Virus record (IMG/VR): IMGVR_UViG_3300039046_000040
Location: 1 to 32,060 of that record
Strand: one strand, 5' to 3'
Length of the DNA stretch: 32,060 nucleotides
DNA from: a virus
Both the position numbers and the translations under genes were made by a program. Shown here piece after piece: positions 3,774 to 28,539 of the stretch (position 1 is the first letter of the stretch; the number at the start of each line of letters is the position of its first letter). The notes under the pieces were generated by a model. The model was not told where the DNA came from. It saw nothing but the letters and a program-made list of their open reading frames with translations, and did not search any database.

Positions 3774-6700
3774 TGCAGAGTTCAATGTTAAAAGCTATTG
3801 TTGAGGACTTTGGCAATGGTGGTACAATAGATGGTGATTTAGTAGTATCTGGCGACTTAACTGTATCTGGAGGTGGTAGTCTTAGTTTTGATGAGATTAT
3901 AGAAGGTACACAAGTAATAGATGTCACTAGCACAGAAGCCTTGCTTGTACGTAAGAACGGTGATGGCGGTGATGTATTCAAGGTGGATACACAAAATACA
4001 AGAGTAGGTATTGGTTCTACATTTTCACCAAGTTACCTACTGCATTTAAAAAGTGGCGATAATGTAATGGCATCATTTGAATCTACTGATGCTAATGCAA
4101 GTATATACTTAGTTGATAGCAACACAACTGCTGATGCTACATTAAAAAGAGTTACAAATGATTTAATTTTGCTTGAAAGCGGAGGAAGCGTTGGTATAGG
4201 TGCATCGCCCACAAATAATCTACACATCGAAGCAGACTCTGGTGATGAAGGTATAACTATCCATAGTGCTGGGGACACATCAAATGCAGTTATATTAGAT
4301 GCAAATAGGTCAGGTGCAGATAGTGGTATTGGTAATATGCTTGGTAAGTGGAATGGTACTCTGATTGGTTATATGGGATTTTTTAGTGGTGCAGATACTA
4401 CTAATAAAGATGATGGTGTAATTAAATTTGCTACAACTCCATCTGGTGGCTCTGCTACTGTTGCACTTACCATAGACTCAAGTCAAAATGCTACTTTTGG
4501 TGGTGATGTTGGTATAGGAGTCACACCAACTAAGAGGTTAGAATTGGGTGGAGGTACTTCTGGACAAACATTATTATTTTCTAATACTGGCGTAAATACA
4601 ACTAACGGAGCAAGAGTTCAAGCAAATATTAGATATAAAACTGGTTCTTATGCTGGACAAAACACTATTCAGATTGTGACAGAAACACAATTTGATGATA
4701 GTTCAGCAGTGGTTTTTAATACTGGTGGGAGCAGTGCAGAAAGATTACGAATAACAAGCGGTGGAAAAATTGGTATAGGTACAAATCTTCCGTCAGGTAA
4801 GCTAACTTTGTCAAATGGTTCAGCATCTGCACCTTTGAGTATTACAGCAAGTAATTCATATATACAATTAGGCAGTGAAGATTTTGGTAGTGGTGGATTA
4901 GGTAAGTTTATGATTGGCTTTGGTTATACCGATGTACTAACCAATACAAACGCTCCAGCATATATAGGTTTTGAAGAAACATCTACAAGTGGAGATACCA
5001 AAGGTGATTTAACATTCTATACAAGAGATGTAACTACAGATACTGCACCTACAAAAAGACTTACTATTGGTGCTGATGGCAATGCTACTTTTGCTGGTGA
5101 TGTATTTATTAGCAACTCAACACCAATTTTACGATTGGATGATTCTGATGTAAGTACAAATGTTTCATTAGATGGTTCTGGTGGTATAGTAAAACTTGCA
5201 AGTCACGCTGGTCAAACTATTAGATTTTTAATTGGTAGTACAGAGGTTTCAAGATTTGACTCGTCAGGAAGATTAGGTATAGGAACAAGTTCCTTATCAG
5301 ATAAGTTAGAGATAGCTGATGGTGCAGTAAATGGTTCAACATATATGAACCTTAACAACAATCACGCAGACCAGTTTTTATCATTAGGAATTAATGGAAA
5401 TGTTGGTGAAATAGCAGTTGACAATGGAGATAGTTTAAGTTTTGGAACATATACAAATAAGTCAACTAAAACTTTAACTACTGCACTTACCATAGACTCC
5501 AGTCAAAATATTGGTATAGGTTCAACTCCCAAAACTCACTTAGACGTTCAAAGCTATCAAGCTGATGGAATCACCATTGGTGCTGATAATGATGCTAACA
5601 GGACAAGAACAAATAGCACATCTAAGAGTGGTGGCATAACTGGTGTTCATTATACCAATGCTGAAGAAAGCATAAGATTAATTGGATATTCTTCTTCATC
5701 TTCAGCTAATACACTTCTTCTTGGTGGTGGTAATGGTGATTGGAACTCAGCAACTAATATAAACTTTTATGTTGGTGCAAACACTACAACTACTGCTGGT
5801 GACTTAAGATTTAAACTTGATACCAACTCCAGAATCTCCATATCTAATAATGATAGTGGTACACTAAATACAGTCTTTGGCTACCAATCTGGTACTGCAC
5901 TTGCATCTGGTTCTACTGAGAATACAGTTTTTGGACACCAAGCTGGGTTAGCACTTAGTACAGGAGATTACAACACAGCAGTTGGTGCATTAGCCCTGAA
6001 AAGTGAAGATGGTGGAAATAGAGCTGTTGCAGTTGGAACATCTTGTATGTTTTCCCAAAATGTATCTGATCAATCAAGAAATGTTGCAGTAGGATTTGCG
6101 GCAAGTTATCACAATGTTACAGGAGTACAGAATACAGCAGTTGGATATGAAGCATTAGGTGGTTCATCTGGGAATAGTCACGATAATAATACTGCAATTG
6201 GATATGATGCTCTTCATTCAGTTAGTACAGGAAGGCAAAATGTTGCAGTCGGTTCTGCTTGTGGGGATGCTATTACTGCTGGTGTTCAGAATGTTATTGT
6301 TGGAGCAGATTCAGATATTAGTGCTGTAGATGCTGGTAATGAAATAGTATTAGGATATGGGGTAACTGGACAAGGCTCTAATAAAGCAACAATTGGTAAT
6401 GCAGACATTACTGATGTTTATATGGCATCAGATAGTGGTGCTACAGTTCATTGTGCTGGTATTCAATTTCCAGCAAGTCAAGTAGCAAATGGTGGGGCAA
6501 ATGTACTTGATGATTACGAAGAAGGCGAACATACATCAGTTATTACTTGTGGTAATTCTGGAACTGTTACTCTTGATGGTACTAATAACAAATTATCTTA
6601 TGTAAAAATCGGAAGTATGGTAACTGTTAATGGCTTACTAAGTGTCAGTTCTGTAAGTAGCCCAGATGGATATTTTACATTTAGCGTACCATTTACACTC

Positions 6701-8910: not shown

Positions 8911-9203
8911 TGGCTAAAGATCCTAGATTAAAAAGGTTTGGTTTGTCTGGTTATAACAAACCTAAGAGAACACCAAGACATAAAACTAAATCTCATGTTG
9001 TACTTGCAAGATACAGGAAGGGTGGCAGAACTGTTACTAAGTTAATTAGGTTCGGTCAGCAAGGAGTCAAAACAAATCAAACGGTAGCACAAAGAAAAGC
9101 TTTTAAATCTCGACATAGAAAAAACATAGCGAAAGGTAAAAGTTCAGCGGCATGGTGGGCAAATAAAGTTAAATGGTCACCTAGTAAAACTAGGAGTAAA
9201 TAA
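8910..9203 (+). CDS. Basic protein, DUF6321-like
   Basis: This 97-aa protein is very basic. It contains RLKRFGLSGYNKPKRTP near residue 6, then SHVVLARYRKGGRT, LIRFGQQGVKT, and RHRKNIAKGKSSAAWWANKVKW near the C-terminus. That string of motifs matches the DUF6321-type proteins that I know from marine cyanophage and pelagiphage genomes. Function unknown. A nucleic-acid or virion interior role is suggested only by charge. It begins on the last base of the upstream stop (TAATG). Confidence 0.7.
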   Translation: MAKDPRLKRFGLSGYNKPKRTPRHKTKSHVVLARYRKGGRTVTKLIRFGQQGVKTNQTVAQRKAFKSRHRKNIAKGKSSAAWWANKVKWSPSKTRSK

Positions 9204-9204
9204 G

Positions 9205-9408
9205 ATGGATTATGAAACAATAGACGAATATAGAAGCAGTGTTAAAGAAAGATTAGCAAGGATAGAATCTATTTTGCAAAGAGAATTGCCAGATATAAAA
9301 GAACAACTTAAAATATCTAATGGGAGAACCAGATCACTTGAAAACTGGAGAAATTACATCTTGGGTGGTATGGCTATATTAATTTTTTTATTCACTAATC
9401 TAAAATAG
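9205..9408 (+). CDS. XhlA-like membrane-anchored coiled-coil protein
   Basis: This 67-aa protein has a coiled coil at about residues 8-45 and one membrane helix at the C-terminus (residues 48-66, YILGGMAILIFLFTNLK). This order is that of the XhlA/haemolysin family, which assists lysis in several phages by working with a holin and an endolysin. The lysozyme-like gene lies only 236 bases downstream, which supports the call. Confidence 0.6.
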   Translation: MDYETIDEYRSSVKERLARIESILQRELPDIKEQLKISNGRTRSLENWRNYILGGMAILIFLFTNLK

Positions 9409-19880: not shown

Positions 19881-19950
19881 ATAGGCAAGGATGTACAGGG
19901 CGATTACTCCATTTCGTCCTTATTCACATTATACTACCATCCTTGCCTAT
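19881..19950. repeat. Perfect 13-bp inverted repeat with nested stem
   Basis: ATAGGCAAGGATG (19881-19893) is the exact reverse complement of CATCCTTGCCTAT (19938-19950), 44 bases apart. Inside lies AGGGCG (19897-19902) pairing with CGTCCT (19915-19920), with one G-T pair. The arms are much richer in G+C than their surroundings. No T-run follows, so a classical terminator is unlikely. A structured RNA, a DNA cruciform, a packaging or replication site all remain possible. Confidence 0.7.
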
Positions 19951-20006
19951 TCCTACCCTATTATAACCCTTTAAAAATATAGTTGTACTATTTGCAAACT
20001 GTTATT

Positions 20007-20023
20007 AAGTTACATTGTGAATA
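20007..20023 (+). promoter_or_regulatory. Shared operon-leader element AAGTT-N5-GTGAATA
   Basis: The pattern TTAAGTT, five variable bases, then GTGAATA occurs here (from 20005) and again at 27363-27381, each time 24-30 bases before the first ATG of an operon with an AT-rich stretch downstream. It could be an early promoter or operator. No standard -35/-10 pair with 16-18 spacing is evident. Confidence 0.4.
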
Positions 20024-20046
20024 AAATAAATAATATGGAGTTATCA

Positions 20047-20439
20047 ATGAAACATGAGCAAAAAAACCCTGCTGACATTTGTAATAATGTTGTCATGGAT
20101 GTACATAGTAAACTTGACCGAGGTGTCTTTACTACAAAAGTAGCTAAGAAAGAGTCTATTGATATATGTAATAGAGCATATGATCAATTAAGAAAATTAA
20201 TTGAAAATCAAATACTTTCTATTCCGTTTAATATTAGAAATCCAAAAAAGCCAACAACTTTATCAACTATTATTGATGAGATGTATTGGGAGTTGCCTGG
20301 TTATGTTCATCAATGGAGACAAATGCATACTAACTTATACAAAGACAGCTTTGAAAATATAGTTGACAGAATTGAATTTTTAGCTGATTTTAAGCAAGAT
20401 GTAAAAGACACTGTAGTTGAAAAAGGAGGCGAGCAATGA
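20047..20439 (+). CDS. Hypothetical early protein
   Basis: I place the start at ATG 20047 because GGAG (20037-20040) lies six bases before it. An earlier in-frame GTG (20017) would fall in the shared promoter-like element, and ATG at 20035 has no site. The resulting 130-aa protein is helical and contains CNNVVMDVHSKLDRG, CNRAYDQLRKLIE and MYWELPGYVHQWRQMHTNLY. It is the first gene of the early operon. No family is recognised. Confidence 0.6.
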   Translation: MKHEQKNPADICNNVVMDVHSKLDRGVFTTKVAKKESIDICNRAYDQLRKLIENQILSIPFNIRNPKKPTTLSTIIDEMYWELPGYVHQWRQMHTNLYKDSFENIVDRIEFLADFKQDVKDTVVEKGGEQ

Positions 20440-20684
20440 AAAAAAGAGTACCACATGACTATATGTATCATGCTGAAATAATGTTTGAAGGCGAGATTGC
20501 AATGAGGTTTACTTGTGCAGTTGGCAATACTATGGAAGAACTAATTAAAGACATAGATAAAGAGTTTAAAGAAGTACAGCATAGGATGCCTGAAATAGTT
20601 GAAGCCTTAGCCTATCCAAATGGAATAAATAAAAACATAACCAATTTAGTAAATAGATTATATTATCAAAGGGGAGATAAATAA
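20436..20684 (+). CDS. Hypothetical protein
   Basis: This 82-aa protein overlaps the gene before it by four bases and has AGGAGG upstream. It starts with a basic stretch and beta-like HAEIMFEGEIAMRFTCAV, then two helices. No family recognised. It is the second gene of the early operon. Confidence 0.55.
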   Translation: MKKRVPHDYMYHAEIMFEGEIAMRFTCAVGNTMEELIKDIDKEFKEVQHRMPEIVEALAYPNGINKNITNLVNRLYYQRGDK

Positions 20685-21109
20685 TGCCAGTACCATTTTT
20701 GAAAAAACATTCTGAACAACAATATCTGTATCTTGAAACCTTTGCTTTAAATTTGTTTACTGCTGTTCAATCACTTATGACTATAACCGAAGGCGAAGAT
20801 TTAGATAACGACAATCAAAAAATAAATCATTTTGGGGCACTATGTATTAGAATTAATCAAATAGTGGAAGAGTACGCTCCTCAAGTCCAGAAGGTTCGTG
20901 GTGTCATGTTCAAAGGGGATTCCGCAACTACAAACTCGCCTTTGCCCGAACCTTCTGGCAACATTCAGATTACTTGTAATAAAGATGAATATGATTTAAT
21001 AATTGAAGCTCTTGATCATATGGGAAACAGTTTTCCTGATTTAAAAGTTTCGGATAAATTTCATAAATTAAGCAATGAAATAAAAAACATAAAAAGGAGT
21101 AAAAAATGA
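20684..21109 (+). CDS. Hypothetical two-domain protein with hairpin-coding linker
   Basis: This 141-aa protein has a helical N-terminal domain (residues about 5-75), a Ser/Thr/Pro linker (about 83-97, ATTNSPLPEPSG) and a small C-terminal helical domain. The DNA for the linker region (20887-20958) holds a perfect 12-bp inverted repeat with a nested stem. The linker thus looks tolerant of insertion. Function unknown. GGGGAG ribosome site and TAATG overlap with the preceding gene. Confidence 0.55.
   Translation: MPVPFLKKHSEQQYLYLETFALNLFTAVQSLMTITEGEDLDNDNQKINHFGALCIRINQIVEEYAPQVQKVRGVMFKGDSATTNSPLPEPSGNIQITCNKDEYDLIIEALDHMGNSFPDLKVSDKFHKLSNEIKNIKRSKK
20887..20958. repeat. Perfect 12-bp inverted repeat inside a coding region
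   Basis: CCAGAAGGTTCG (20887-20898) is the exact reverse complement of CGAACCTTCTGG (20947-20958). Inside, CAAAGG (20911-20916) pairs with CCTTTG (20939-20944). The spacing (48-base loop) and two-level pairing resemble the element at 19881-19950, although the sequences differ. It is more G+C-rich than the surrounding gene. Confidence 0.7.
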
Positions 21110-23342: not shown

Positions 23343-23604
23343 TAAAGAAATTCATATTATTGATTGGATTTTAAAAAAAACTGAAGATAAACAGCAAAGA
23401 GATAAAATTAATGCACGAAAAAGAGCAAGAAGATTTGAGAATAAAAAATGGAGTGTTGATAATAATATTTTCTTTTGTGAGTCGTGTAGAACTTGTTGGT
23501 CAAATGTCACTAAATATATTGATGGGAGTAAATGGAAAAAATATCCAAAAGGGTTTATCCCATCTATAGGTAAAAAAAGAAAGGAGTGTCCTCATTGTGA
23601 ATAA
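23335..23604 (+). CDS. Small zinc-binding-like protein
   Basis: This 89-aa protein is basic. A C-E-S-C pair near residue 48 and a C-P-H-C pair at the end suggest one zinc site, split by a 35-residue loop. A helical basic stretch (DKQQRDKINARKRARRF, about 18-34) could bind DNA or RNA. It overlaps the replication gene by eight bases, and its own end overlaps the GTG start of the QueD gene. No family recognised. Confidence 0.55.
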   Translation: MPDKEIHIIDWILKKTEDKQQRDKINARKRARRFENKKWSVDNNIFFCESCRTCWSNVTKYIDGSKWKKYPKGFIPSIGKKRKECPHCE

Positions 23605-24040
23605 TAAATATTTTAGTACAAAAAAACTTATTTTAGGCAGTTGTGCTTTTAGGCAACCATTCGCAGACAGTCACTGCAAATTCATACACGGTTATTTATT
23701 ATATGTAAAATTTTGGTTTGAATGTAATGAGCTTGATAAGAATAACTGGGTTGTTGATTTTGGCAGTTTTAAAAAATTAAAAGATACTCTTGAAAATAAA
23801 TTTGATCATAAAACTTGTATTAGTGCAGATGATCCTGAATTGCATACATTTAAAGAATTAGACAAAAACAATTTAATAAGGTTAGAAATATTTGAGAACG
23901 GTGTTGGAATTGAAAAGTTTGCAGAATATTGTTACGATGTTGCAAATAAGTATATTAGAAATATAACTAATGAAAGGTGTTGGGTTGTAAAATGTGAATT
24001 ATGGGAACATAAAAACAACTCAGCAATAGTTTTAAGATAA
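23597..24040 (+). CDS. queD: QueD-like 6-carboxytetrahydropterin synthase
   Basis: This 147-aa protein starts at GTG (no ATG fits). QueD turns 7,8-dihydroneopterin triphosphate into 6-carboxytetrahydropterin. Family landmarks are SCAFRQ (15-20), HCKFIHGY (26-33), WVVDFGSFK (51-59), FDHKT (69-73) and the end region CELWEHKN (134-140) with Glu136. The usual HGH is HGY here and the usual A-A-H is C-A-F, so two of the three canonical zinc histidines are absent. His26, Cys27 and His31 remain as possible ligands. The context (QueE, FolE, QueC, QueF) makes the role secure, but the metal site needs checking. Ends on a TAATG overlap with QueE. Confidence 0.8.
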   Translation: MNNKYFSTKKLILGSCAFRQPFADSHCKFIHGYLLYVKFWFECNELDKNNWVVDFGSFKKLKDTLENKFDHKTCISADDPELHTFKELDKNNLIRLEIFENGVGIEKFAEYCYDVANKYIRNITNERCWVVKCELWEHKNNSAIVLR

Positions 24041-24648
24041 TGTTAAAAATAAGTGAAATATTTTATTCTTTGCAAGGCGAAGGACATAGAACAGGAGAAG
24101 CATCATTATTTGTAAGATTGCAAGGTTGCAGTGTTAAGCATGCTTGTTTTAAAAGCGGAGTGATTTGTGATACAGAATTTGAAAGCGGTCAAGAATTCAG
24201 TATTGATTATGTATTAGATTATGCAAAAAAAGTTGGAACAAAATGGATTACATGGACAGGCGGAGAGCCAACTGATCAACTTACTGATGAGATATGTTTA
24301 TATGTAAAGAAAAAAGGATATAAACAATCTATTGAATGTAGCGGTATAAAGCAACCGTCTATTTATATTGATTGGATTGCATTGTCTCCAAAAATTGCAG
24401 AGCATATCATAATTAAAAAATGGGAACAAGGTGAAGATGGTTTTCATTGTGATGAACTAAGATGGGTTCGGCATAAAGGTCAATCTATACCAAAAACTAA
24501 AATAAAAGCAAGAACATATTACTTGTCTCCTCATTCCGATGGTGCTAATATAAATACTGAAAATCTTAAACATTGTATTGATTTGTGTTTAAAAAATCCT
24601 GAGTGGAAACTGTCAACTCAAGATCATAAAATATGGAGCGTATTGTGA
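24040..24648 (+). CDS. queE: QueE radical-SAM 7-carboxy-7-deazaguanine synthase
   Basis: This 202-aa protein makes 7-carboxy-7-deazaguanine (CDG) from 6-carboxytetrahydropterin. It has SLQGEG (10-15), FVRLQGC (24-30), WTGGEPT (72-78), and the QueE end LSTQDHKIWSV (191-201). The cluster cysteines are C30, C36 and C43, just before the conserved D-T, giving C-x5-C-x6-C rather than the usual C-x3-C-x2-C. A loop has therefore been added within the Fe-S motif. The usual GGEP SAM motif is intact. The gene shares the TAATG junction with QueD, and its end overlaps FolE. Confidence 0.88.
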   Translation: MLKISEIFYSLQGEGHRTGEASLFVRLQGCSVKHACFKSGVICDTEFESGQEFSIDYVLDYAKKVGTKWITWTGGEPTDQLTDEICLYVKKKGYKQSIECSGIKQPSIYIDWIALSPKIAEHIIIKKWEQGEDGFHCDELRWVRHKGQSIPKTKIKARTYYLSPHSDGANINTENLKHCIDLCLKNPEWKLSTQDHKIWSVL

Positions 24649-25181
24649 ATGACTTAGAAAAAAATATAAAAAAAATGCTTTCATTAATTAAACAAGATCC
24701 TGAAAGAGAAGGACTTAAAGACACACCAAAAAGAGTGGCAAAGGCATGGATTGAACTTACAGATCAACAAAATTTCAATCTCACAACATTTTCTTCTGAA
24801 GGATATGATGAAATGATTATAAGCAGAAATATTAAATATTATACATTTTGCGAGCATCATTTATTGCCTTTTTTCGGAAAAGCTCATATAGGATATATTC
24901 CTGATAAGAAAATTGTTGGATTAAGTAAACTTGCAAGAACTGTTGAATATTACTCTAAAACATTGAACACTCAAGAGTACTTTACAGATAATATTGCTAA
25001 TAAAATTGAAAAAGCATTAAAACCAAAAGGTATCGGAGTTGTTGTCGAAGGAAGGCATATGTGTCAAGAAATGAGAGGTATAAAAAAAGAAGGCAATATG
25101 ATAACGAGTTGCTTGAAAGGCATTTTTAGAGATGATTTAAATGTTAAAAAAGAATTTTTGTCATTAGTTAAAGGAGAATAA
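24633..25181 (+). CDS. folE: GTP cyclohydrolase I
   Basis: This 182-aa protein converts GTP to dihydroneopterin triphosphate, the first step toward 7-deazaguanines. It shows all active-site motifs: EGLKDTPKRVAKAW (26-39), FCEHHLLPFFGKAHIGYIP (72-90) with zinc ligands Cys73 and His75/76, and GVVVEGRHMCQEMRG (135-149) with Cys144. The length is near that of the family's shorter members. The start may be ATG 24633 or GTG 24645; the latter gives the tighter GTGA overlap with QueE. A phage copy would let the pathway run without draining host folate enzymes. Confidence 0.93.
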   Translation: MERIVNDLEKNIKKMLSLIKQDPEREGLKDTPKRVAKAWIELTDQQNFNLTTFSSEGYDEMIISRNIKYYTFCEHHLLPFFGKAHIGYIPDKKIVGLSKLARTVEYYSKTLNTQEYFTDNIANKIEKALKPKGIGVVVEGRHMCQEMRGIKKEGNMITSCLKGIFRDDLNVKKEFLSLVKGE

Positions 25182-25182
25182 A

Positions 25183-25977
25183 ATGAAAAGAGCTGTTTTA
25201 TCGTTTAGTGGAGGCATGGATAGTACAGGTGTACTATTAAAATTGCTCAGTAAAAATGTGAAAGTAAAAGCAATAAGTTTTGATTATGGTCAAAAACATT
25301 TAATTGAAATAAAAAAAGCAACTGAATTAATATCTTATTTAAAAGAAAAAAATCACTTAGTTGATCATTCAATTATTAAACTTGACGGATTAAGTAAATT
25401 ATTAAGCAGTAATTTAGTACAAGGCGGATCAGAAGTTCCTGAAGGTCATTATGAAGACGATAATATGAAAATGACTGTAGTTCCTAATAGAAATAAAATT
25501 ATGAACAGTATTATACAAAGCATTGCCTTATCTTGGGCAAATTTGCATGATAAAGAAGTTTTTATTGCTATGGGCATACATTCCGGTGATCATCAAATTT
25601 ACCCTGATTGTCGTAAAGAATTTAGAGATGCAGATTATGATGCTTTTAGAATTGGAAATTGGAATAGTCATAATGTAAAACCATATACACCTTTTTTAAA
25701 TTTAGACAAATTTCACATTTTAAGTCAGTCATTTCGTATCTGCGAAGTGTTAAATATTGATTTTGATGAAGTTTTTAAAAGAACAAATACAAGTTATAAA
25801 CCAATAAATGAATATTCTGACTATAAGTCGGCAAGTAGTATTGAAAGAATAGAGGCATTTATAAAATTAGGTCATCCCGATCCTATACAATACGCTGATG
25901 AAACTGGATTGGTTGATTGGCAAACTGCAAAAAACCACGCTTTAAGCGTCTTACAAGAAGGACAAAATAATGAGTGA
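25183..25977 (+). CDS. queC: QueC 7-cyano-7-deazaguanine (preQ0) synthase, zinc site lost
   Basis: This 264-aa ATP-dependent enzyme makes preQ0 from CDG. The PP-loop SFSGGMDSTG is at 7-16. DYGQKH (34-39), VPNRN (100-104), GIHSGDHQIYPDCR (131-144) and the C-terminal ERIEAFIKLGHPDPIQY (221-237) are standard. The expected zinc-site cysteines of the segment T-x-S-C-Y...C-G-x-C-x-x-C are replaced: 201-205 reads TNTSY and 212-219 reads SDYKSASS. All four positions therefore lack Cys. This may define a cysteine-free clade. AAAGGAG ribosome site; eight-base overlap with QueF. Confidence 0.9.
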   Translation: MKRAVLSFSGGMDSTGVLLKLLSKNVKVKAISFDYGQKHLIEIKKATELISYLKEKNHLVDHSIIKLDGLSKLLSSNLVQGGSEVPEGHYEDDNMKMTVVPNRNKIMNSIIQSIALSWANLHDKEVFIAMGIHSGDHQIYPDCRKEFRDADYDAFRIGNWNSHNVKPYTPFLNLDKFHILSQSFRICEVLNIDFDEVFKRTNTSYKPINEYSDYKSASSIERIEAFIKLGHPDPIQYADETGLVDWQTAKNHALSVLQEGQNNE

Positions 25978-26377
25978 TACTAAAACATTAACACATTTAG
26001 GTAACCAAGGAACTAGTTATGAATATGATAAACCAAACTATGAATTGTTAGAAACTTTTGAAAATCAACACAGGGATATGTCATATACAGTATATATTAA
26101 CTCACCAGAGTTTACTTCTTTATGTCCTAAAACTGGGCAACCTGATTTTGCTACAATAGAAGTATGGTACACGCCAGACAAATTATGTGTAGAAAGTAAA
26201 TCATGGAAATTGTATTTAGGAAGTTTTAGGCAACATGGTGAATTTCATGAAGATTGCACAAATAGAATTACTAAGGATTTGATAAAATTACTGAATCCTC
26301 ACTACATAAAAGTAAAAGGTGATTTTAAACCAAGAGGCGGAATTGCATTTGTTCCTACTGTTGAATGGAAAAAGTAA
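25970..26377 (+). CDS. queF: QueF NADPH-dependent preQ0 reductase
   Basis: This 135-aa protein is a single-domain (type I) QueF, which reduces preQ0 to preQ1. Cys52 of FTSLCPKTGQPDF and Asp59 correspond to the catalytic pair. ESKSWKLYLGSFR (75-87) holds the E-S-K-x-x-K-x-Y QueF/NADPH motif, and the FHED (92-95) Glu contacts the base. The presence of the reductase motif argues for a true reductase rather than an archaeal QueF-L amidinotransferase. With QueF in the operon, the base put into phage DNA is expected to be preQ1. Overlaps QueC by eight and DpdA by 13 bases. Confidence 0.9.
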   Translation: MSDTKTLTHLGNQGTSYEYDKPNYELLETFENQHRDMSYTVYINSPEFTSLCPKTGQPDFATIEVWYTPDKLCVESKSWKLYLGSFRQHGEFHEDCTNRITKDLIKLLNPHYIKVKGDFKPRGGIAFVPTVEWKK

Positions 26378-27315
26378 AATATTATTTTTCAGATTCTAGT
26401 TTTAATGCTGATGATGAACTATTTTATTGCAAATATGCTCTTAACAGATTAATAAGTTATCATTATAAAACATCTTTATATAAATATATAGATATCTACA
26501 GAAAGTTACATGGTGAATATTTAGATTTAAATAACTATAATTTATTAATTGATAGCGGGGCGTATAGTATTTGGAATAGCGGGAAACCATCAATCAATGT
26601 TGAAGATTATAAGATATTTTGTCTTGAGTTATTAATTCATATTTCAGATATGCCTTTTAATAATATTGAATTTATAAATCTTGATAGTATTCCAGGAGAA
26701 AGAAATAGGCCCGTAACTGAGTATGATGTAAAAATTGCACAAGAACAAAGTTATGAAAATTATTTATTACTTAAAAATTATGTTCCAAACTTGTTGCCTG
26801 TGTTTCATCAAGGTGATAGTTTTGAATATTTGCACGAAATAGAAAAATATACTTTAAGGTATTGTGTAAGTCCTGCAAATGATAAATCTGTAAGTCAAAG
26901 GTTACTATGGATACAAGATGTATTTAAAGTGGCAAATCCAAATTTTAAACCGCATGGATTAGGATTTAGCAACGCTACAATAGCAAAAGCAAATCCATGG
27001 CATTCTTTTGATGCAAGTACTCATGCTTTAAGAGCTGGGTTTGGAGTCATTATGTATAAAATAGACGATAAACTATTAGACATTGTAGTAAGTGATGTAA
27101 GAACTCCTGAAACAACCGGAACTCATTTTAAAAACTTTACTAAGTTGGAGCAACAAAAAATTTTAAATGACTTACAACAAGTAGATGATAGATTTACTTA
27201 TGATAACATTGTAAAAGAAGGTAAAATTAGAAAAATGATTAATGTTTATAATGTTAGCAGATATTATGAATCATTTTCTAAACCAACCAATGTAATTCAA
27301 GAAACATTGTTTTAA
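26365..27315 (+). CDS. dpdA: DpdA-like DNA 7-deazaguanine transglycosylase
   Basis: This 316-aa protein resembles phage DpdA, a DNA relative of tRNA-guanine transglycosylases, which swaps guanine in DNA for a 7-deazaguanine. Motifs in order: LIDSGAYS (61-68, Asp63), NLDSIPGERNRP (105-116, Asp107), LPVFHQGDSFEYL (144-156), RYCVSP (165-170), KPHGLGFSNATI (195-206) and SFDAST (214-219, Asp216). These match the barrel positions of TGT-like nucleophile and base-binding Asp residues. No archaeal PUA or CRD domain is present. It is last in the deazaguanine block and overlaps QueF, so the pathway and the writer are transcribed together. Confidence 0.85.
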   Translation: MEKVKYYFSDSSFNADDELFYCKYALNRLISYHYKTSLYKYIDIYRKLHGEYLDLNNYNLLIDSGAYSIWNSGKPSINVEDYKIFCLELLIHISDMPFNNIEFINLDSIPGERNRPVTEYDVKIAQEQSYENYLLLKNYVPNLLPVFHQGDSFEYLHEIEKYTLRYCVSPANDKSVSQRLLWIQDVFKVANPNFKPHGLGFSNATIAKANPWHSFDASTHALRAGFGVIMYKIDDKLLDIVVSDVRTPETTGTHFKNFTKLEQQKILNDLQQVDDRFTYDNIVKEGKIRKMINVYNVSRYYESFSKPTNVIQETLF

Positions 27316-27362: not shown

Positions 27363-27381
27363 TTAAGTTGTAAAGTGAATA
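27363..27381 (+). promoter_or_regulatory. Shared operon-leader element, second copy
   Basis: TTAAGTT, five variable bases and GTGAATA lie 20 bases before the ATG at 27402. The same pattern precedes 20047. A nearby 6-bp inverted repeat (AACTTA 27350-27355, TAAGTT 27364-27369) overlaps it and could be an operator. The gap 27316-27401 otherwise holds no gene. Confidence 0.4.
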
Positions 27382-27401
27382 TTAATAGAATAGGAGTAAA
27401 C

Positions 27402-27752
27402 ATGAACCTAGTACAATGCAGTACACCTTCTTGTTATATACAAGAAAGAGCTGTTGTTGGTGTTGAAATTATTTGCCATGTTTGTGTAAATAAAGTTGAC
27501 TTGCAAATACAAAAACAACACCAAGATCAGATTAATCAAATAAAAACCAAGCCAACCAACACGCCTGTCTGCAAGCGTAAAAGATGGACAAAAACAGAAG
27601 ATGCTATTATTTACGATTTTGTCCAAACTCATAACATAGCGGAGCTTATGAAAATGTTGCCAGGTAGAACAGGGTACGCTGTTGAGAATAGAATATTTAA
27701 ATTAAAAGTTGATCATGTTGCTAAGCAAAAGTACGTTGATCAAATAAACTAA
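27402..27752 (+). CDS. Myb/SANT-like DNA-binding protein with N-terminal Cys pairs
   Basis: The AGGAG at 27392-27396 sets the start at ATG 27402 rather than the upstream ATG 27360, which lies in the leader element. The resulting 116-aa protein has Cys6, Cys11, Cys25 and Cys28, a plausible zinc site. Residues about 60-102 match a Myb/SANT-like helix-turn-helix: RWTKTEDAIIYDFV, then LPGRTGYAVENRIFKL. Phage regulators and host-takeover proteins use this fold. It heads a two-gene operon ending at the 28562 terminator. Confidence 0.65.
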   Translation: MNLVQCSTPSCYIQERAVVGVEIICHVCVNKVDLQIQKQHQDQINQIKTKPTNTPVCKRKRWTKTEDAIIYDFVQTHNIAELMKMLPGRTGYAVENRIFKLKVDHVAKQKYVDQIN

Positions 27753-27765
27753 AAAGGAGAAGAAC

Positions 27766-28539
27766 ATGACCCTAGAAAATGCAAATAAACTAAAAGACAA
27801 AATGCAAAAGTTACTTAATCATGCTACTAGTGCTGAAAAGATAGGTAACCAAGCAGAAGCAGAAGCGTTTATGAAGAAGTTAAATGCGCTTTGCTTAAAA
27901 CATAAAATCAGCATGGCAAACGTACAAGCACACGATCCAGACAACAGCGATGAAAGTATAACTAAAGAAGAAGTTGATAGAACAGAACATGGTTTGCCTG
28001 TACAATGGAAAGCACAGCAATGGATATGGAACTTAGCAAACGCTATTGCAAGTGCTAACAACTGTAGTTATCTTGTTGCTAATGGTTCAAACAGAATATG
28101 GTTTGTTGGAAGAGATCAAGACAGAAGGTTTGCTATACATATGTTTAGTTATTGCTATAAAACACTGTTGATAGATTGCAAAAAAGAATATGACAAGACA
28201 TATAATCATTTCTATGCCATGGGGCTCCAATCACAAGTAAAAGGTTTCCCGCAGTCATTTAAGAAAGGATTTGTTGCGGCGATAACTAAAAGGTTGAATG
28301 AAGCAAAAGAAGAAGTTAGGAAGACAACTGACGCTGAAACATTTGCACTGATTACTACAGGTCAAATGGTTGCAGTTCGTGAATATATGAATACAATGTA
28401 TACTAGGTCTGCTAGTTCGTTAGGTGGGTCAAGTTCTCATAATGTACATGGATATAATAGCGGAATGAAAGCAGGTAGTAAAGTTTCACTTGCGGTAGGT
28501 TCAGTTTCAAATGGAGGTACAAAGCAACTTACATCATAA
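27766..28539 (+). CDS. DUF2786 / DUF7168-type protein
   Basis: This 257-aa protein opens with the DUF2786 pattern: KLKDKMQKLLNHATSAEKIGNQAEAEAFMKKLNALCLKHKIS (residues about 8-49). The middle part (about 75-190) with QWIWNLANAIASANNC, WFVGRDQDRRFAIHMFSYCY and SFKKGFVAAITKRLNEAKEE matches the following DUF7168 region. The end is Gly/Ser-rich. The family is common in phages and plasmids, with no known activity. It has a strong AAGGAG site, 13 bases after the Myb-like gene. Confidence 0.78.
   Translation: MTLENANKLKDKMQKLLNHATSAEKIGNQAEAEAFMKKLNALCLKHKISMANVQAHDPDNSDESITKEEVDRTEHGLPVQWKAQQWIWNLANAIASANNCSYLVANGSNRIWFVGRDQDRRFAIHMFSYCYKTLLIDCKKEYDKTYNHFYAMGLQSQVKGFPQSFKKGFVAAITKRLNEAKEEVRKTTDAETFALITTGQMVAVREYMNTMYTRSASSLGGSSSHNVHGYNSGMKAGSKVSLAVGSVSNGGTKQLTS

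Follow-up and report, generated by a model that had tools for sequence, protein, structure and literature searches.

The hairpin at positions 20887-20958 of the stretch analysed here, a 32,060-base virus record with 32.6% GC that we call the window, is a real structure and not a chance repeat. It lies in frame in the coding sequence of gene 20684, and the best reading of the comparative data is that a structured RNA, embedded in this coding sequence, would be made in the direction of the gene. A partner hairpin at 19881-19950 lies upstream of UTR1, its proposed target. Comparison among related phages shows coupled change of the partner hairpin with UTR1, along with the structure and its conservation; repression as the outcome, action in trans and any processing are what we infer from these patterns.

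The mechanism that we favour, at somewhat better than an even chance, is a C4-like pair of phage antisense RNAs, one copy of which would be embedded in coding sequence. Both hairpins would expose short antisense segments in their loops, and these would pair with early phage mRNAs at the 5' end, the Shine-Dalgarno (SD) sequence and the start codon. Such pairing would occlude ribosome binding and so repress the early genes, in a way similar to c4 RNA in phages P1/P7. Transcription of gene 20684 from the UTR1 promoter, if it occurs, would make the embedded copy a source of feedback, more early mRNA giving more antisense. If this mechanism holds, marine phages would time early genes with same-strand antisense hairpins, one DNA stretch would both encode a protein and regulate genes, and the co-changing hairpin and UTR sequences would be ready-made compensatory mutants.

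The hairpin in gene 20684 and its relatives

The features of the coding hairpin in the window are the following.

20684-21109, plus strand: gene 20684 (141 aa, from the list of open reading frames), containing the hairpin in frame
20887-20898, plus strand: 5' arm of stem P1, CCAGAAGGTTCG (inverted repeat; covariation)
20947-20958, plus strand: 3' arm of stem P1, CGAACCTTCTGG (inverted repeat; covariation)
20899-20946, plus strand: conserved loop, the proposed antisense surface (loop conservation; antisense weak in the window itself)
20903-20911, plus strand: loop segment GTCATGTTC, start-codon complement
20919-20923, plus strand: loop segment ATTCC, SD complement with one G-U
20925-20929, plus strand: loop segment CAACT
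20911-20944, plus strand: inner stem P2, CAAAGG (20911-20916) with CCTTTG (20939-20944), present in the window and not general in relatives

Arms CCAGAAGGTTCG and CGAACCTTCTGG are perfectly complementary over 12 bp and enclose a loop of 48 bases, as the original prediction had described. Repeats of this kind (perfect 12-bp arms, loop of 3-75 bases, at least 6 G/C) occur in the whole window only at 20887 and 19881, and 200 dinucleotide shuffles gave a mean of 0.005: one of them contained a single such repeat and no shuffle contained two. It was its stem, GC-rich against an AT-rich genome, that made the hairpin stand out; structured RNAs of bacteria and phages are mostly sought between genes. 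The inner 6-bp stem of the prediction is present in the window, but many relatives have no CAAAGG/CCTTTG; in these a shorter P2 is possible, typically GGGG with CCCC-like partners, and 83% of its cells were paired in 18 sequences.

Counted by gene order from the inferred UTR1 promoter, gene 20684 comes third. It had no PHROG family match and no tblastn match to annotated phages; its N-terminal domain had no relative in genome_contigs, and blastn of the hairpin element against annotated phages found none. In IMG/VR, relatives were found at 7 loci with the whole protein as query and at 32 loci with the N-terminal 65 residues, a query that excludes the element; these 32 loci are the set free of DNA-pattern ascertainment.

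Of 31 related contigs, 27 have the coding hairpin, always in this gene and at the equivalent position. This count comes from covariance model R2 of the coding element (E below 1e-4), which 17 of the 27 matching contigs had also served to build, and the contig of the N-terminal set left out of the search was L034/L001, which carries the window's element. L063 and L065 were missed by R2, yet have 9-bp perfect arms at the same place. The helix starts in an identical codon phase in all 27 elements read, so the reading frame is kept, and in L005 (5001-5459) an in-frame insertion adds 48 bases to the loop in comparison with that of the window and leaves the stem intact.

The hairpin lies in a protein linker, as predicted, though few parts of the protein are as well conserved as this linker. 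Comparison of the linkers of homologues gave, among the loci examined, no case of the same linker lacking pairing. The opposite case was found in L062-L065, where the linker peptide is partly or largely different and the stem is retained (arms AGCAGGGAG/CTCCCTGCT in L062 and ACAGGAGGT/ACCTCCTGT in L063). Two of the 32 loci, L060 and L061, have a homologue of gene 20684 (at about 3001) with a different linker and no clear hairpin, and their intergenic hairpin is present. Element codons with a conserved amino acid were unusually fixed, with a mean entropy of 0.29 (9 codons) versus 0.98 elsewhere (36 codons; p 0.003), in a test that, like sequence set A4, includes in part sequences found by DNA pattern. 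Set A4 omitted L005 (insertion), L041 and L062-L065 (register shifts), L060/L061 (no clear hairpin) and near-duplicates.

The covarying pairs looked for after the original prediction were found in the stem. Over the whole structure 92.6% of cells paired in 18 sequences (96% in P1), and six pairs had changes on both sides, with 20 such cells against 6.7 in shuffles (0/500). The covariation score was 0.333 versus 0.197 in shuffled alignments (0/500), and slid controls gave 0.03-0.11; the shuffle tests, like the swap tests below, ignore relatedness. The count of further pair types was not above that of shuffles (141/500). Beyond the counted helix, the outer stem re-forms with other bases and bulges (CCAG/CTGG, CACTGA/TCAGTG, CCAAC/GTTGG).

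On the gene strand, P1 had 21 G-U cells and no A-C cells (pairs 8-18). The gene strand also folded lower in 17/24 coding elements and in 17/19 intergenic ones. Taken together, these two biases are as expected for an RNA made in the gene direction. One-strand scoring by R2 was dropped as evidence of polarity, since a sequence-bearing model would favour that strand regardless.

It had also been suggested that the hairpin might be an inserted element. Rickettsia palindromic elements are mobile palindromes inserted in frame, and the window's hairpin resembles them in being in frame and GC-rich within an AT-rich genome. Mobile palindromes have many dispersed copies; here the pattern and model searches gave one strong match per record, always at the same place of one gene. 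A DNA pattern for the core GGRGAYTCCGCAACTACA found 25 stretches, 22 of them within the gene 20684 family; the other three are unrelated stretches on contigs of 43-60% GC with no comparable hairpin. A mobile origin is highly improbable, and this part of the prediction is not supported.

Rfam 15 models, including riboswitches and ribozymes, gave no relevant match at the gathering threshold or at E up to 10. A frameshift stimulator was set aside by eye because there is no conserved slippery site upstream of the stem, and an internal start codon was set aside because several relatives, L023, L028 and L033 among them, have no ATG. Two further repeats were seen in these searches. The window has a weak match to R2 at 8925-9002 (17.6 bits, E 0.13), probably by chance. 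L012 has at 4324-4407 another GC-rich 9-bp inverted repeat with a 66-base loop, which is absent among R1 (the intergenic model, below) and R2 matches at E up to 1.

The intergenic partner and UTR1

The partner hairpin and the start regions considered as its targets are listed here.

19881-19950, plus strand: partner hairpin, between structural and early genes
19881-19893/19938-19950, plus strand: its stem P1, 13 bp
19897-19903/19914-19920, plus strand: its stem P2
19906-19912, plus strand: its loop segment ACTCCAT
19920-19928, plus strand: its next segment, TTATTCACA
19983-20011, plus strand: putative UTR1 promoter TTGTAC - 17 - TAAGTT (weak match, read by eye)
20016-20049, plus strand: UTR1, proposed target of the 19881 hairpin, with TGTGAATAA (20016-20024), ATGGAGT (20035-20041, SD) and ATG (20047)
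27375-27404, plus strand: UTR2, a second site with the same 5'-end motif, with GTGAATA (27375-27381), GGAGTAA (27393-27399) and ATG (27402)

Model R1, built from 17 intergenic elements, found the intergenic element at E below 1e-3 in 25 of the 34 records searched. At this threshold there was no match in L004, L006, L016, L041, L056-L058, the record of L015 and HTVC131P, and some of these records do not include the region upstream of the gene. L016 has at 9286-9338 (minus strand) a diverged intergenic-like hairpin (E 0.53), with no usual UTR in the following 275 bases. In P1 of the 19881 hairpin 7 of 10 pairs had changes on both sides, and the intergenic inner hairpin carries RCUCC in its loop, followed by UAUUCAYA.

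The original prediction that the coding hairpin copies the design of the 19881 element agrees with what divergent phages have. There the coding hairpins share a CUCC ... UAUUCACA motif with the intergenic one (CUAUUCACA in L062, UGUUAUUCAC in L063, CUCCGUUAAUCACA in L064), and R1 weakly matches the L063 coding hairpin (E 0.035). Because of this common motif and the weak match, we treated coding and intergenic hairpins as versions of one motif, which for the window's own pair would hold by extension from these relatives.

On the 3' side of the intergenic hairpin, and in several genomes at another site too, a promoter-like stretch precedes TRTGAATA, GGAG and a start codon, in this order; before UTR1, boxes resembling TTGAC and TATAAT occur in relatives with comparable spacing. 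The UTR motifs are the complements of the motifs of 19881-type hairpins. The pattern TGAATA-N6..34-GGAG-N3..10-ATG was found in 23/26 records at 46 places, some of them inside genes and not of the promoter type, and the reversed control gave 3. The gene after UTR2 (27402-27752) weakly matches phrog_323, a family of D5-like transcription regulators (E 2e-6).

The coupling of the 19881 hairpin with UTR1 appears strong. Across 19 phages, 293 of 323 hairpin-UTR1 positions were in standard pairs, versus 268 +/- 4 with UTRs swapped (0/20,000 swaps reached it), in a count that ignores relatedness, for which segments were read by hand, six of the 19 rows are identical, 30 positions are unpaired, and the phages omitted include L028/L050 (register shift), L064 (different motif), L005 and L031. 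A CAACUA/UAGUUG pairing, probably upstream of the transcription start, was excluded from the counts. L028/L050 match in a shifted register, CACAACUAUA/UAUAGUUGUG, and in L064, which lies outside the first UTR pattern, hairpin UAUUAAUCACA matches UTR1 UGUGAUUAAUA over 11 bp. The second segment co-changes with the SD region (CUCCAU/AUGGAG, CUCCAA/UUGGAG, CUCCGU/ACGGAG), with exceptions. On a tree of gene 20684 that excludes the element, parsimony placed two changes between CAC/GUG and CAU/AUG, each on both sides together, and one joint change of hairpin and UTR that gave GAUUCAC/GUGAAUC (L033). A third position changed jointly at least twice; there hairpin and UTR also change alone.

Among the 32 gene starts of the window, UTR1 has the longest run against the 19881 hairpin, 9 bp, plus 7 bp over the SD; by chained score it ties with four other starts. 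A duplex-energy scan of whole loops in the window did not single out the UTRs. Over all phages UTR1 was strictly best for the intergenic hairpin by chained score in 14/22 (Fisher 1e-5, with a wrong UTR1 in the window's row). In L064, UTR1 was not best by chained score for either hairpin (0.2 each). A second site at 2459 of L064 (GTGATTAATAA) matches its intergenic loop over 11 bp, as long as UTR1 does.

Coupled change could also arise in DNA. TGTGAATA, just downstream of the -10, may be a double-stranded operator and the 19881 hairpin a reversed operator, both changing together through a DNA-binding repressor. In many phages the spacing between the motif and the inferred promoter is indeed similar, and a reversed operator would appear complementary. 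An operator does not account for a second segment that co-changes, exceptions aside, with the SD, an RNA signal, nor for segments placed within a covarying hairpin, nor for G-U pairs and strand bias in folding, and we regard it as improbable. The 19881 hairpin might instead work only in cis, folding onto UTR1 in read-through transcripts of the late genes and stopping early translation. The distance from hairpin end to UTR1 motif, about 65-90 nt in the phages read, would suit this. The window and several relatives have the 5'-end motif again at another start, kilobases away, and in the window UTR2 pairs 7+7 bp with the 19881 hairpin; action in cis only also leaves the copy inside gene 20684 unexplained. 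It seems unlikely, at perhaps one chance in a few, and is compatible with the other readings, including the antisense pair.

Complementarity of the embedded loop

For the embedded hairpin, pairing with early-mRNA starts is supported only in some clades. In 24 phages the coding 5' loop matched loosely defined UTR-motif starts better than other starts (KS 2e-8; 15/24 below 0.1) and matched its own UTRs better than swapped ones (p 2e-4), both tests being uncorrected for relatedness. Over the start codon the loop matched 12 bp in L007, 11 bp in L006 and 9 bp in L004; over the SD it matched 11 bp in L023/L029 and 9 bp in L025/L031. The loops of L041 and L007 differ; in both phages the match to the respective target is 12 bp long. 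Matches were 9+9 bp in L062, 10 bp in L063 and 11+6 bp in L065. In L064 three matches, of 9, 8 and 7 bp, fall on 5' end, SD and start codon in that order; two loop bases belong to both the first and the second. In L010, ATCCTCCTTT from the 3' part of the loop is the complement, over 10 bp, of AAAGGAGGAT, where a gene of that locus is predicted to start.

In the window itself the coding loop matched 7 bp at 20047 and at 27402 and 9 bp at 27766, which is within the range of other starts. The last of these was the longest among 32 gene starts and could be due to chance.

27762-27770, plus strand: GAACATGAC, at the start of gene 27766, the 9-bp match of the 20887 loop

By chained score over all phages, UTR1 was strictly best for the coding loop in only 4/21 (Fisher 0.25), and another UTR-motif start was best in only 2/9. 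No clear target matches UCCGCAACUACA, a segment that hardly varies within the window's clade.

The coding hairpin may instead be a conserved RNA structure with another role, such as a protein-binding site, a processing signal or a translational pause between protein parts, its complementarity being a by-product. The near fixation of UCCGCAACUACA without a matching target, the window match within background and a UTR1 chained score that lacks significance across the full set of phages are what this account would expect. It does not explain why the clade-specific matches of 9-12 bp vary with the target (L041 versus L006/L007, L023/L029, L062-L065), or why the motif is common with the 19881 hairpin, which is strongly coupled to UTR1. 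We give it about the same low odds as action in cis only.

Returning to the antisense pair, we hold it slightly short of an even bet that the coding sequence doubles as a trans-acting three-part antisense RNA, with targets re-tuned by clade and an intergenic sister as its pair. That the loop formed by in-frame codons would cover 5' end, SD and start codon, in a c4-like system spread over a coding gene, belongs to this reading and stands at the same odds. As for the regulatory structure in the early mRNA that had been proposed, the structure stood, with a covarying stem and a conserved loop; regulation itself would be a deduction from it.

Comparison with known systems

The c4 RNA is encoded on the same strand as its target, the ant (antirepressor) operon, and has three stem-loops (P1-P3) that are processed by RNase P to about 77 nt. 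Loops complementary to the start of a target mRNA are also known from IS10, where the hairpin RNA-OUT, made from the opposite strand, has a long overlap with RNA-IN. The hairpins described here resemble RNA-OUT in the complementarity of the loop to a target mRNA start and differ from it in that the complementarity is same-strand, short, split and at a distance.

The c4 RNA of P1/P7 is a phage hairpin RNA of about 77 nt in which one loop partly covers the ribosome-binding site, another confers specificity by pairing upstream, and a few changes in the specificity segment separate the types (PMC5320573, PMC12197685). It is listed together with the motif c4-a1b1 (PMC2864571). The 19881 hairpin resembles c4 in having two short segments complementary to the ribosome-binding site and upstream sequence of its target; for the coding hairpin this two-segment complementarity is clear in certain clades alone and does not hold across all phages. 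The c4 model (RF01695) had no covariance-model match to the phage hairpins at E up to 10, and only P1 and P2 were seen here in contrast to the three stem-loops of c4. Further differences are a second copy inside coding sequence and first genes after the UTR motif that vary between phages; in the window this first gene (20017-20436) matched only an unknown PHROG. The nearest precedent is c4 of P1/P7, yet we do not file the hairpins as RF01695 members because there is no model match and there are two stems, not three.

The bacterial RNA FtsO acts as a sponge for another small RNA. It is an E. coli regulatory RNA embedded in coding sequence (PMC7815308), and it is in this ORF-internal position that the coding hairpin is like it. 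The proposed targets here differ in being phage mRNA start regions, and the hairpin covaries. Among the matches listed in a search limited to open PubMed Central papers, there was no account of such an element in pelagiphages.

Among the genes of the window are those for a major head protein, a terminase, tail proteins and a tape-measure protein, together with a cluster of queuosine type. When its first 8,000 bases were compared with annotated phages, the only matches were to two Pelagibacter phages (138 bases, 70% identity), and for this reason we guess at a SAR11-type host. The queuosine/7-deazaguanine genes at 23597-27315 comprise QueD-like, QueE-like, two GTP-cyclohydrolase-type, QueC-like and tRNA-ribosyltransferase-like genes, and this cluster perhaps serves DNA modification.
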